Origin: Paraoerskovia sediminicola
GTDB lineage: Bacteria; Actinomycetota; Actinomycetes; Actinomycetales; Cellulomonadaceae
Reading direction: 5' to 3'
NCBI RefSeq assembly: GCF_030296575.1
Contig: NZ_AP027729.1
Span: 434,001 to 498,000, forward strand
DNA: 64,000 bases
Positions 17,921 to 22,579 of this stretch are shown piece by piece. The first letter of the stretch is position 1, and every line of letters begins with the position of its first letter. The position numbers were made by a program, and so were the translations under genes. A model generated the notes under the pieces. It was not told where the DNA came from, ran no database searches, and saw nothing but the letters and a program-made list of their open reading frames with translations.

Positions 17921-19606
17921 CGTCCCGCAGGAGCTCCGCGATCACCGCCGGGATCGCGCGGGCCACGTCCATCGCGGCGACCGGACCGCCCGGGTTGGCG
18001 GCACCCCCGCGACGCCGTGCACCAGGGCGGCGGCGGCGGCCAGCCGGGCCGGCAGCTCGGGGTCCTCGACGGCCTCCTCGCTGAAGGCCGCGAGCAGCGT
18101 CCCGAGGATCCCGGTCAGCACGTCGCCCGACCCGGCGGTCGCCATCCACGCGGACCCGTCGGCCTGGGAGTACGGGACCCCGGGGCCGACGACGACCGTC
18201 ACCCCGCCCTTGAGGAGCACCGTCGCGCCGGTGAGCTCGTGCGCCCGGCGCGCGTGGGCGAGCGGCGCCGCCTCGACGTCCGCGCGGTGCACCCGCTCCC
18301 CCAGGGACCGCAGCAGGCGGGCCAGCTCACCCGCGTGCGGGGTGAGGACGACGTGCGCGGGGAGCGGGCCGCCGTCCTGCACCAGCAGCGAGACGACGTC
18401 GAGCCCGCCGGCGTCCACGACGACGGGAACCGCGCCGTGCTCGCCCGGGGTGACCGCCTCCTGGAGGGCCGCGCGGGCGAGCGCGAGCTGCCCCGCGTCG
18501 TCCCCCGCGCCCTCCGTCGGTAGGCCGGGACCGATCGCCCAGGCCTGGACGCGGCCGGTGCCGGGGACCACCTCGGGTCGCGCGGCCAGGACCGAGGACG
18601 CGACGGCGTCCGGCCCCAGGTAGCGGACCATCCCGGCGCCCGTGCGCACGGCCGCGGTCGTCGCGAGGACTGCCGCCCCCGGGTACGCCGGTGTGCCGGC
18701 GACGACGCCGACGACGCCGCGCGAGTACTTGTCGTCCCACGGGCCGGGCACGGGCCAGAGGTCCGCGACGTCCTTGAGGTCGAGGCGACGCAGCGCGGGC
18801 TCGGCGCCCTGCTCCGCGATGGACTGGCTCAGGCCGAGATCGATGAAGTGCAGATCACCGGCGTGGTGCGCCGCGGGCGGCAGCAGCAGCCCGGGCTTCG
18901 TCGCGCCGAAGGTGAGCGTGACGTCGGCCGTCAGGACGGGCCCCTCCACCGTGCCGTCGTCCACCCCGATACCGCTCGGGGTGTCGACCGCGACGATCAC
19001 CGGGCGCGGACGCTCGGTCTTGCCCGTCGCCGGCCGACCGCCCAGCGTCGCGATCGCCGTGCCCTTGCGGGCCGGACCGGGACCCGTGCTGGTGCTGGTC
19101 GACTCGAGGGTCCGGGCGAGCTCGTCGGCACCCGTCAGGGACCGGACGAGGTCCTCGGCGACGCCGCGCAGCGGCCCCGTCGCGCCGATCCCGACCAGCC
19201 CGTCGAGGACCAGGTCCGAGGCGAGGATGTCGGCGAGGGTGCTCGACCAGTCGGGGCTCGACGGGCCCGCCGACAGGTCGACCACGCGACCCCCGGCCTC
19301 GACGTAGGCCGCGAGCGCCTCCTCGTGGACGTTCTCGCTGACGCACGCCGCGACGACGTCGGCCTCGCGCCCGAGGAGGACCACGCCCGCCTGGAGCGCG
19401 TCACCGCCGTTCGCGCCGCTGCCCACGAGGAGCGCGACCCGGACCCCGGGGAGCGCGTCGAGCTCGTCGCCGCTGCCCGTCGGCAGGAGCGCCGGCGTGG
19501 AGGTCGTGGCGAGCATGAACGCGGCCATCTCCATCAACGGCACCCCGCTCTCGAGCAGAGGGACCTCGGCGGCTCGGACGTCCTCGGCGGACCAGGCTTC
19601 GATCAT
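17910..19606 (-). CDS. nnr: bifunctional NAD(P)H-hydrate epimerase/dehydratase (frameshifted in this sequence)
   Basis: About 565 aa when restored. Repairs hydrated NAD(P)H. The N-terminal YjeF_N epimerase half has VALLVGSGANGGDALQAGV and DTPSGIGVDDG; the C-terminal ADP-dependent dehydratase half has DDKYSRGVVGVVAGTPAYPGAA, VVVDAGGLD, VLTPHAGELARLL and the ATP-site ATAGSGDVLTGILG. The last 35 codons are in another frame; one C added to the five-C run at 18004-18008 restores HGVAGGAANPGGPVAAMDVARAIP. First gene of the minus-strand run to 12.1 kb. In many actinobacteria acpS lies directly upstream; here 2.6 kb separates them. Confidence 0.88.
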
Positions 19607-19676
19607 GCGCCCATCCTGCCCGGACCCGGTGACGTGCGCGCAATCCGGCGAGCCACGTTCTGGCCGGAGTAAAGTC

Positions 19677-20723
19677 ATGGTCATGCGATTCGGACTCTTC
19701 ATCCCGCAAGGCTGGCGTCACGACCTCGTCGGCATCGACCCCTCGGAGCAGTGGGAGACCATGCGCTCCCTCGCCCGCTACGCCGACACCGCGCTCGCCG
19801 GCAAGGGCCTGCCGGGCGACCTGCCGGCCTTCGAGTCGGTGTGGGTGTACGACCACTTCCACCCCGTCCCGGAGCCGACGACGGAGGCCACCCACGAGGC
19901 GTGGACGCTGATGGCGGCGTTCGCGGCCTCGACCGAGCGCGTCCGCCTCGGGCAGATGTGCAGCTGCATCGCGTACCGCAACCCCGCCTACCTCGCGAAG
20001 GTCGCCGCGACCGTCGACATCGTCTCGGGCGGCCGCACCGAGATGGGGATCGGTGCCGGCTGGTACGAGCACGAGTGGCGCGCGTACGGCTACGGGTTCC
20101 CGGGCGCCGGCGACCGGCTCAAGGCGCTCGACGAGGGCGTGCAGATCATGGCCCAGGCCTGGCGCGAGGGGACGTCGACCTTCGCGGGCGACTACTACAC
20201 GACCGACGGCGCGCTCTGCCACCCCCAGCCGCTGCAGCACGGGGCGGGCGACGGCGTCGGGCCCTCGATCCCGCTGTGGATCGCCGGCGGCGGCGAGAAG
20301 CGCACCCTGCGCACGGCCGCGAAGTACGCGCAGTACACGAACTTCGACGGGGCGCCCGAGGGGTTCGCCCACAAGTCCCAGGTGCTGCGCGACCACTGCG
20401 CAGACGTCGGGACGGACTTCGACGCGATCACCCGCTCGGGCAACTACAACGTGGTGATCGGCGAGGACGAGGCGGAGGTCGCGGACCGGCTCGCCTGGAT
20501 CGAGGACCACTACCGCCGTGCCGTCCCCGGCAAGGCCGACGGCGAGATCCAGTCGTGGAAGAACGGTCCGCTCGTCGGGACCCCGGAGCAGATCGTCGAG
20601 AAGCTCACGGAGCTCCAGGGCCTCGGCATGACCTACGGGATCACCTACTTCGCGGACGCGGCGTACGACCGGTCGGCGATGGAGCTGTTCGCGCGCGAGG
20701 TGATCCCGGCGTTCCGGGACTGA
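19677..20723 (+). CDS. LLM class F420-dependent oxidoreductase
   Basis: 348-aa luciferase-like monooxygenase-fold protein. Starts MVMRFGLFIPQGWRHDL; the conserved barrel segments are SVWVYDHFHPVPEP, RVRLGQMCSCIAYRNPAYLAKVAATVD, SGGRTEMGIGAGWYEHEWRAYGYGFP and PLWIAGGGEKRTLRTAAKYA. This is the actinobacterial subgroup that uses coenzyme F420. Substrate unknown. ATG at 19677 has GGAG seven bases upstream; ATG at 19683 is the alternative. It is divergent from nnr and lies next to the inverted-repeat cassette. Confidence 0.9.
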   Translation: MVMRFGLFIPQGWRHDLVGIDPSEQWETMRSLARYADTALAGKGLPGDLPAFESVWVYDHFHPVPEPTTEATHEAWTLMAAFAASTERVRLGQMCSCIAYRNPAYLAKVAATVDIVSGGRTEMGIGAGWYEHEWRAYGYGFPGAGDRLKALDEGVQIMAQAWREGTSTFAGDYYTTDGALCHPQPLQHGAGDGVGPSIPLWIAGGGEKRTLRTAAKYAQYTNFDGAPEGFAHKSQVLRDHCADVGTDFDAITRSGNYNVVIGEDEAEVADRLAWIEDHYRRAVPGKADGEIQSWKNGPLVGTPEQIVEKLTELQGLGMTYGITYFADAAYDRSAMELFAREVIPAFRD

Positions 20724-20770
20724 CCCCCTCGTCCTCCTCGTCCCTCCCCTCTCCGTCCCTCTCCCCCTTC
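20724..20770. other. polypyrimidine tract
   Basis: The 47 bases after the oxidoreductase stop are almost entirely C and T. A matching purine-rich stretch follows the right repeat (about 22211-22230), so the tract mirrors the cassette symmetry. No gene seen. Confidence 0.6.
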
Positions 20771-20860
20771 TCTCTTCCCGCCGAACCGGTGGTTGTGTGC
20801 GATCAGGAGCTCGTGATCGCACACAACCACCGGTTCGACCGTCGCTGATCGCCGGTTCGG
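20771..20860. repeat. left 90-bp inverted repeat of the AbiEi-like cassette
   Basis: It aligns without gaps to the reverse complement of 22131-22220 (about 70 of 90 positions identical by eye). Inside it lies a perfect 24-bp hairpin, 20782-20805 with 20814-20837, and an 8-nt loop. The inner 14 bases (20847-20860, GATCGCCGGTTCGG) match the right copy exactly. Confidence 0.9.
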
Positions 20861-21077
20861 CAGGGCCGAGTCGGTGGGTCTGGGGTCGGCGGGGCGGGTG
20901 ATGGGTCAGCTGGTGACGGGTCAGGGGTGGTGTAGGCGGGTGACGGGTCGTCGGCTCCACCGGGGGCTCGGACGCGGCGCGGGCTCGCCACGATCCACAG
21001 CCTGTCCTGCCTGCGTGGCGTCCACAGGCCACTCGTCGACGACGCTGTTCGCGTCGCGTCCGCGGTGGGATCGATCC

Positions 21078-22028
21078 GTGCGCCGGACGACGATCCCACC
21101 CTCGCTCCTGGACCTCGCCGAGCGACAGGCGGGGCTGGTGAGCGCCGCGCAGTGCGCCGCGCACGGACTGGGCCCCGGACCCACCAGGACGCTCGTCGCT
21201 CGTCGCGAGTGGTCGAGGCCGACCCGCGGCGTGTACGACACCTGCCCGGTCGGCGAGCGGACCCCCGGCCGAGGCCGCCTGGTCGCCGCCTGGACCGCTC
21301 TGCTCGCCTACGGGCCGCGCTCCGTGGCGGTCGGGGCGTGCGCGCTCGCCCTGCACGGCGTGAACGGGCTGCCACCCCGCATCTCCCCCGAGGCAGCGGT
21401 GGCAGGAGCGGACAACCGCGTCGATCGCGACGGACTGCGCTGCCGCGACTTCACGACGCCAGCCCCGGCGGGCAAGGGCGACCCGCAGGCGACGGCACTC
21501 TCCGGCGGACGGCGCGTCGTCCCGCTCGAGCTCGCTCTCGCCCAGGCGGTCCCGGAGCTCCCGAGGGCCAACGCCCTCGCGGTGCTCGACGACGTGCTGC
21601 ACCGCGGACGGCTGACGACCGGCGGGCTCGCGACCGTGCACGATCTCGCTCGCGGACGTCGAGGGGTGGCGCGCGCCCACGAGCTCTTCGCGCTCGCCGA
21701 CGCGCGGGCCGAGTCCCCGCTGGAGTCCTTCGCCCGACTGGACTGCATCGACGCCGGCGTCGCGCCCGACGTCCTGCAGCTCCCGGTCATCGACCGACGG
21801 GGTCACGTGAGCGCTCGAGGCGACATGGCCTGGCGCCAGACCCGGGACCGCTGGCTGGTCGCCGAGATCGACGGACGGGACGTGCACGGCGCGCCGGATG
21901 CGGTCTACGCCGATCGCGCGCGGCAGAACGCCCTCGTCTCGACCGGCCAGATCGACGTGCTGCGGTTCACGGCTCGCGACCTCGGCCAGATCGGCTCGAC
22001 GGTGCGACGCGCCCTGAACCGCGGCTGA
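21078..22028 (+). CDS. AbiEi-like / DUF559-type protein in the inverted-repeat cassette
   Basis: 316 aa. The N-terminus (LLDLAERQAGLVSAAQCAAHGLG, TRTLVARREWSRPTRGVYDT) is the winged-helix domain found in type IV toxin-antitoxin AbiEi antitoxins. The C-terminus (ESPLESFARLDCIDAGVAPDVLQLPVIDRRG, RDRWLVAEIDGRDVHG, DVLRFTARDL) resembles DUF559/Vsr-like endonuclease folds, with candidate catalytic acids in the E-S-x-x-E and E-I-D-G segments. No AbiEii-like nucleotidyltransferase toxin is adjacent, so toxin-antitoxin function is unproven. GTG at 21078 was chosen because the domain begins there and TGGGAT lies six bases upstream. Nuclease or regulatory function is open. Confidence 0.75.
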   Translation: MRRTTIPPSLLDLAERQAGLVSAAQCAAHGLGPGPTRTLVARREWSRPTRGVYDTCPVGERTPGRGRLVAAWTALLAYGPRSVAVGACALALHGVNGLPPRISPEAAVAGADNRVDRDGLRCRDFTTPAPAGKGDPQATALSGGRRVVPLELALAQAVPELPRANALAVLDDVLHRGRLTTGGLATVHDLARGRRGVARAHELFALADARAESPLESFARLDCIDAGVAPDVLQLPVIDRRGHVSARGDMAWRQTRDRWLVAEIDGRDVHGAPDAVYADRARQNALVSTGQIDVLRFTARDLGQIGSTVRRALNRG

Positions 22029-22130
22029 CCGCTCGTTCCACGCCGCCCGGCAGAAGGCGTCGAATGCCGGGGGCCGCCTGCGGGGTGTCAGTTGCCGGCT
22101 GTCAGGAGCCGGCTGCCAGGTGCCCCGCCG

Positions 22131-22220
22131 CCGAACCGGCGATCGCGTGCCCCCGAACCGGTGGTGATGTGCGATCCGGAGCCCAGGATCGAGCACAACC
22201 ACCGGTTCGGCAGGAAGAAG
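22131..22220. repeat. right 90-bp inverted repeat of the AbiEi-like cassette
   Basis: Reverse-complement partner of 20771-20860. Its internal hairpin (22153-22177 with 22186-22210) has 25-bp arms with four mismatches, so it is less perfect than the left copy. Confidence 0.9.
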
Positions 22221-22228
22221 AGTGGGGG

Positions 22229-22579
22229 TCAGGACTCGGCGACCACCATCGCCGACGCGATCCCGGCGTCGTGCGAGATCGACAGGTGGAACGACGTGAT
22301 GCCGAGCTCGGCGGCGCGGGCGGCCACGGTGCCCGAGATCTCGACCTCGGGCGGCCCGCCGGGGACCCGGTGCACGGTCGCGTCGTGCCAGCGCATCCCG
22401 CCCGGCGCCCCCAGCGCCTTGGCGATCGCCTCCTTCGCCGCGAAACGCGCCGCCAGCGAGGCGTCCGGCAGGTCGCGCTCCGCCGGGGTGAAGAGCTTCT
22501 CCCGGAGCCTCGGCGCCCGCTCCAGCGTCGCCATGAACCGGTCGACGTCGACGACGTCGATCCCCACGCCCACGATCAC
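22229..22579 (-). CDS. acpS: holo-[acyl-carrier-protein] synthase
   Basis: 116-aa 4'-phosphopantetheinyl transferase that activates ACP for fatty-acid synthesis. Metal-binding motifs are [12 protein letters not shown] at the N-terminus and [13 protein letters not shown] near residue 55; the C-terminal [18 protein letters not shown] completes the fold. GTG start with GGGGAGG upstream, 21 bp behind the glmS stop, so the two form an operon. The right inverted repeat of the cassette ends eight bases beyond its stop. Confidence 0.97.

Follow-up and report, generated by a model that had tools for sequence, protein, structure and literature searches.

The locus lies in a 64,000-nt stretch of the Paraoerskovia sediminicola genome (contig NZ_AP027729.1, positions 434,001 to 498,000; hereafter the window), between an LLM/F420-type gene (19497-20723) and acpS (22229-22579), both named from sequence. 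There, an AbiEi-like gene is bounded on both sides, in inverted orientation, by a 60-nt hairpin and by a half site CCGGTTCGGC placed 22 bp further in (Table 1). A first-pass annotation made from the letters alone had described inverted ends around this gene, and these hold up as an ungapped inverted repeat of 80 nt (20758-20837 / 22154-22233, 79% complementary), whose left/right match score of 50 compares with a median of 12.4, a 99th percentile of 29.5 and a maximum of 49 for neighbour-window controls at 109 loci. The arm hairpin noticed within each end is present as well, with arms of 28 nt on the left (96% complementary) and 25 nt on the right (84%), and the inner segment described as common to both ends proved to be a perfect 15-nt match. 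Read from outside to inside, the element consists of a pyrimidine tract, the 60-nt hairpin (GCCGAACCGGYGGTTGTG..GATC..loop..GATC..CACAACCRCCGGTTCGGC), about 8 nt and the half site GATCGCCGGTTCGGC; the hairpin consensus is a 60-nt unit with ends GCCGAAC..GTTCGGC. When folded as RNA, the two hairpin units are far more stable than shuffled sequences (z of -7.5 and -5.6).

The pyrimidine and purine tracts flanking the locus had also been remarked upon, and the outer pyrimidine bias is general: across 140 hairpins, the 20 nt outside the hairpin are 62% pyrimidine versus 52% in controls, and the outer tract of 18 solo copies (described below) reaches 66%. Pyrimidine-rich tracts outside the hairpins are seen at many individual loci, for example L116, L093, L173 and L218, and beside solo copies. 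This recurring tract could belong to the element or reflect a preference for certain targets. In the locus's own sequence no direct target-site duplication is visible beside 20780 and 22211, the 1.45-kb unit contains no integrase and the region has no Rfam match.

Table 1. Features of the locus, in positions of the window
Feature	Position	Strand	Evidence
Pyrimidine-rich tract outside the left hairpin, from the stop codon of the upstream LLM/F420-type gene to the element	20724..20779	+	Sequence
Left 60-nt hairpin, GCCGAACCGGTGGTTGTGTGCGATC..GATCGCACACAACCACCGGTTCGAC	20780..20839	+	Inverted repeat, folding, dispersed copies
Left inner half site GATCGCCGGTTCGGC; its CCGGTTCG is 22 bp from that in the inner arm of the hairpin	20847..20861	+	Spacing general
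Gene: AbiEi-type winged helix and CTD fused to a Vsr/EDxHD nuclease domain (predicted)	21078..22028	+	Profiles, model, homologues
Right inner half site, inverted copy of the left half site	22130..22144	-	Perfect 15-nt match
Right 60-nt hairpin, inverted copy of the left hairpin	22152..22211	-	Inverted repeat, folding
Purine-rich tract (pyrimidine-rich on the opposite strand) that runs from the right hairpin to the stop codon of acpS	22212..22231	+	Sequence

Domains of the encoded protein

The gene most likely starts at GTG 21078 and stops at 22028; taking the codon at 21081 as residue 1, the AbiEi-type part spans approximately residues 1-207 and the nuclease domain residues 212-315. This combination of an AbiEi-type winged helix with a Vsr-like C-terminus had been proposed from the sequence, and both profile and structure comparison agree with it. 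PF13338 (AbiEi_4) matches the window protein barely above its cut-off, the AbiEi profile of the PADLOC defence-gene library matches at 5e-9 within the DNA-binding module only, and Pfam REase_MTES_1575 falls below its cut-off for the window protein and is matched by 5 of 10 homologues. NCBIfam gave no match, and none of the solved structures searched by sequence profile matched. Using an AlphaFold model of the protein (mean pLDDT 88), VIA-align superposes the AbiEi antitoxin (6y8q) over residues 1-207 with Z 8.5 and the I-Bth0305I catalytic domain (3r3p) over 92 residues within 212-315 with Z 10.4, TnsA scoring below both (Z 6.7); Foldseek returned weak matches only, the best at E 1e-3 (Rv2827c and AbiEi, then TnsA).

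Six catalytic-type residues (E215, D248, E262, D264, H269 and D278), presumed to correspond to residues of I-Bth0305I, are invariant in all 113 family homologues and nearly invariant in 20 homologues from elsewhere in the phylum. Such invariance points to an intact active site under selection, and nuclease activity is predicted. Beside the locus there is neither an AbiEii (DUF1814) toxin gene nor a defence neighbourhood, and the plasmid and phage collections searched contain no homologue of the gene.

Hairpin copies in the genome and in relatives

A search of the genome for the end, as suggested in the first-pass annotation, was rewarding: the left end, BLASTed against the 3.5-Mb assembly, returned about 24 places (E below 0.005), namely both hairpins at the gene plus about 21-22 solo copies made of hairpin and half site without cargo, a number that, being a count of BLAST matches, is a lower bound. 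With about 21 solo copies elsewhere in the genome, the ends of the locus are members of a dispersed REP-like family and not private to one cassette. The CCGAACCGG..CCGGTTCGG spacing is exactly 49 bp in 20 of 20 aligned copies, in which the half site follows 20-22 bp further on the same side. Copies are almost all intergenic and, according to a simple GC3 gene finder, about half of them have, no more than 60 bp from their outer side, the stop codon of a converging gene; the solo copies showed no remnants of the AbiEi-like gene. Covariation within this hairpin family is modest (85% of cells paired, a score reached by 6 of 500 shuffles), and pairs changed on both sides do not go beyond shuffles; therefore we claim no selection at the RNA level.

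A cassette with exchangeable cargo, as first imagined, finds no backing in these data: the roughly 21 other copies are solo, homologous units carry one gene family only, and the sole pair of copies inspected at a 2-kb distance (262.9 and 264.9 kb) is direct, not inverted. These two same-orientation copies (L008/L010, C1 262.9-265.0 kb) flank an apparent SulP-type transporter gene. An integron-like reading was set aside as the best explanation, given that the cargo is not varied and the ends are mostly solo. Repeats at many loci without cargo, which had been put forward as grounds for abandoning the idea of a mobile unit, are indeed what is found, and they point to a gene with a dispersed cognate family rather than to nothing. 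A few copies have peculiarities of their own. Near the contig ends (L029/L026, 22.3 kb and 3,428.5 kb), near-identical hairpin arrays contain additional CCGAACCGG iterons spaced by 20-22 bp, and an assembly overlap may have made two loci out of one; solo copy L030 (2494223) has extra half sites in tandem, and solo copy L005 (C1:1186564) lies near a separate repeated sequence, CTACCTGTCGGCATGCCG. The genome also encodes a second, distant paralogue (L224, C1:697083-697871, about 33% identity), adjoined by weak, unmatched hairpins.

Among 199 other genomes of the family, with the four best candidates per genome scored, only one, a congener, contains this very hairpin at E <= 1e-6. The gene itself is matched at E <= 1e-15 in 140 of 200 family genomes, many of the matches being distant paralogues, and homologues with matched flanking hairpins occur in about a dozen other genera of the family, with a hairpin sequence that differs by lineage. 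In Sediminihabitans and Isoptericola, for example, the two hairpins flanking the homologue are alike and unrelated to that of P. sediminicola (GAGCGTCTCTG..CAGAGACGCTC, GCCGAACAGGAACCTGGGCCCGCTTTGG). Considering 109 loci, the inverted match between the left and right sides of the same locus has a median of 31 versus approximately 12 for mismatched pairs or neighbour windows, 60 loci exceed the 99th percentile of the control and 66 have strong hairpins on both sides; in about a third of homologues no matched pair is detectable. The median hairpin length is 62 nt, and a repeat of the inner end, at +21/22 bp, is found in 21 of 140 hairpins versus 3 on the outer side.

The arrangement extends further: roughly half of 18 homologues from other families and another class (about 22-40% identity) have matched flanks, most clearly L237, L226, L221, L228 and L218. 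Outside the family the pairing could thus be followed to a protein identity as low as about 25%. In all homologous units the cargo is the AbiEi-nuclease gene family. Repeat families are thus lineage-specific and the gene-hairpin arrangement is shared; the pairing of gene and hairpin is well supported. Dispersal is likewise not confined to P. sediminicola: in three other genomes searched, each of four further hairpin families had some 2 to 16 additional sites. Isoptericola sp. AK164 has about 13 places with the L047 hairpin and about 5 with that of L051, which is different; in G216, a member of another class, the L237 hairpin is at about 18 places, and in G592 the corresponding hairpin is at four.

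Conservation in place had been named as another possible objection to mobility, and it applies in part: the acpS-side copy occupies the same site in several genera, but its presence is patchy, it is sometimes inverted and its hairpin sequence varies between genomes. Empty acpS sites, a search for which had been suggested, do exist, in the congener G025 and others, and empty and filled sites occur within one genus; empty ones hold an ordinary terminator-like hairpin instead. In a gene tree built with profile-chosen reading frames, genes of one site tend to group, and site A is filled from more than one clade, for which several entries are needed; the gene tends to stay long at a few sites. Genus g8 shows the unit inverted relative to conserved neighbours at two sites, with the breakpoints at the hairpin arms.

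Hairpins of paralogues in one genome differ, with a median similarity of 0.45 versus 0.74 within a locus (9 pairs). At the same site across genomes, the two hairpins of a locus were more alike than the between-genome mean in 24 of 27 pairs, a comparison restricted to the hairpins of 36 loci, each with two strong hairpins, in which the pairs are not independent. A telling example is site C, where the outer GAGCGTCTCTG is kept and all four arms have jointly acquired a different inner stem (TTTCTCAGGA, AAAGTCCGGG, GTTGCACGGG, TTCGTCAGGA), so that two hairpins 1 kb apart change in concert. More generally, both hairpins of one locus tend to change sequence jointly.

A REPtron-like reading and its rivals

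We propose, with a probability of roughly 0.6, that the locus represents, within a REP-like hairpin family, the copy that carries the gene, that is, a REPtron-like selfish unit equipped with an EDxHD nuclease and not with an HUH transposase. That gene and hairpins form one functional unit seems to us very probable; that the nuclease drives the spread of the hairpins is a somewhat favoured suggestion. A dedicated nuclease gene would sit between two inverted copies of the palindrome recognised by its product, other copies being solo. What computation shows is that gene and cognate hairpin are paired, that such pairs recur with different sequences, that the hairpins are dispersed, that the active site does not vary and that the two ends change jointly; binding, cutting and movement are presumed steps. 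The AbiEi-type winged-helix module would bind its own hairpin family, both at the arms and at the half sites spaced by 22 bp. AbiEi proteins bind 23-bp inverted repeats near their own gene (PMC7319586) and I-Bth0305I forms a dimer on a target almost 60 bp long (PMC3943268); it is therefore plausible that this protein recognises a 60-nt palindrome whose half sites have a 22-bp spacing. The EDxHD domain would then nick or cut the element, probably as an extruded or single-stranded hairpin, or on one strand only, because the approximately 20 intact chromosomal copies would otherwise be lethal targets. Repair of the break would copy the hairpin, and occasionally the whole unit, into intergenic spots, mostly behind gene ends, and would also convert existing copies to one sequence, a step that we infer because of the dispersal, the concerted change and the inversion in place.

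REPtrons place a single enzyme gene between inverted palindromes, with a matched dispersed repeat family and several families per genome (PMC3733652). Like the locus, they combine one gene, enclosed by a palindrome in inverted copies, with numerous solo copies that lie mostly in intergenic DNA close to gene ends; a genome has several families, every one with a gene of its own, and the gene stays long at one site, as described for RAYTs (PMC3733652 and related papers). The first-pass annotation had listed a REP-type unit among its options, which was the right direction as regards a gene with dispersed cognate repeats, although the enzyme is not the HUH Y1 protein of REP/RAYT (TnpA-REP) systems but an unrelated EDxHD/Vsr-type nuclease with an AbiEi winged helix, and the consensus lacks a GTAG/CGTC tag. 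Hairpins are also longer here (about 60 nt versus 20-40) and are accompanied by a half site 22 bp inwards; copy numbers are lower (about 4-24 versus hundreds). Its statement that there is no transposase stands for the Y1 family: PF01797 had no match at E <= 0.01 in this genome and 9 others, in which controls were detected. CGTC-tagged REPs, which lack a dedicated HUH transposase (PMC3733652), are similar as a hairpin family without a known enzyme of this kind; they belong to another sequence class and other phyla, whereas here a candidate enzyme lies between the repeats.

As to the protein, residues 1-207 share the N-terminal winged helix and CTD fold of AbiEi type IV antitoxins (S. agalactiae AbiEi, M. 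tuberculosis Rv2827c), but there is no adjacent AbiEii nucleotidyltransferase toxin, a nuclease domain is added, and the repeats are on both sides of the gene and dispersed. The nuclease resembles the EDxHD homing endonuclease I-Bth0305I in fold and in the E-D-x-H-D residue pattern, whereas the DNA-binding part is AbiEi-like. TnsA of Tn7 has a related nuclease fold; it acts together with a DDE transposase, with target selectors and with defined transposon ends, and the locus shows none of them.

The resemblance to I-Bth0305I, the nearest fold, suggests a homing-type selfish gene instead, whose EDxHD nuclease would cut gene-less alleles or ectopic hairpin sites, with repair copying gene and hairpins in and solo hairpins being landing pads or scars of lost genes. 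The dimer's target of nearly 60 bp (PMC3943268) is close to the median hairpin of 62 nt, different gene clades fill the same sites (several entries at site A), and acpS sites are both empty and filled within one genus. Homing insertion should, however, destroy its target, and here the gene lies outside any intron or intein, between two intact repeats, without interrupting its own target, which is dispersed in the genome; all solo copies are intact too and have no gene remnants. Because the repeats beside the gene are intact, classical homing fits less well than a selfish REPtron-like unit, and we regard it as unlikely. Less likely still is a domesticated regulator, in which the protein would bind and regulate hairpins that serve as bidirectional transcription terminators or form mRNA 3′ ends, their dispersal being ancient. 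In roughly half of the copies in this genome the outer side does follow a stop codon by no more than 60 bp, the RNA hairpins are very stable, ordinary terminator-like hairpins occupy empty acpS sites and AbiEi proteins autoregulate by binding inverted repeats (PMC7319586); the long residence at a few sites fits a domesticated function as much as a selfish unit. Terminators nevertheless require neither a shared primary sequence, nor a 22-bp half site, nor joint change of hairpins 1 kb apart; a T run is absent, a promoter regulon is not expected at gene ends and the nuclease active site is invariant. A terminator or regulator role thus accounts for where the hairpins lie, but neither for their joint change in sequence nor for the invariance of the nuclease.

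The matches to AbiEi profiles of a defence-gene library would agree with a nuclease attacking incoming DNA, with the chromosomal hairpins as operators or self marks, but they are confined to the DNA-binding module, and an AbiEii toxin neighbour, a defence neighbourhood and, in the collections searched, a plasmid or phage homologue are all absent; we give this reading very little weight. The same low weight goes to host recombination alone, in which gene conversion would have homogenised an old hairpin family and the gene would be a neutral passenger. By gene conversion, terminal repeats can stay alike and the enclosed segment can be inverted, and host recombination can by itself suffice for the inversion and the homogenised flanking repeats, which counts against the selfish-unit reading; it leaves unexplained, however, why one gene family has matched hairpins of unrelated sequence in genus after genus and why paralogues in one genome keep different hairpin families. 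For the REPtron-like unit that we prefer, spread driven by the nuclease faces the objection that a protein cutting its own 20-odd chromosomal sites needs some restraint. The roughly one third of homologues in which no matched pair is seen, and the lack of a visible target-site duplication, also weigh against this reading.

In formal terms, a nuclease of another superfamily relates here to its hairpin family as RAYTs relate to REPs; this is seen in many genera, in which the gene and the sequence of its hairpin change together. Should the preferred reading be right, selfish systems built on palindromes evolved on two or more occasions, with enzymes that are unrelated. This bears on the open problem of REP-like palindromes without a known mobilising enzyme. 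We see about an even chance that these loci represent an undescribed repeat-spreading class, common in Actinomycetota, in which AbiEi-EDxHD nucleases spread and homogenise their own long hairpin family without a transposase, via nuclease-triggered repair or copying of extruded hairpins. A search of the literature short of preprints and most subscription journals gave nothing relevant that links DUF559 or Vsr with REP or palindromes, and an earlier description of an AbiEi-nuclease hairpin system is possible. On the preferred reading, many Actinomycetota genes annotated as 'AbiEi antitoxin domain' or 'DUF559' would gain a testable role, and the sequence-diverse nuclease-hairpin pairs could be used for recognition studies. 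Some homologues carry the hairpin in tandem: a distant one in G582 (L226) has two copies per side, TGCTGTGAGCA..TGCTCACAGCA, matched over 125 bp, and in Cellulomonas biazotea (L045) the left flank consists of two tandem hairpin units, CGACCCCGTC..GACGGGGTCG.
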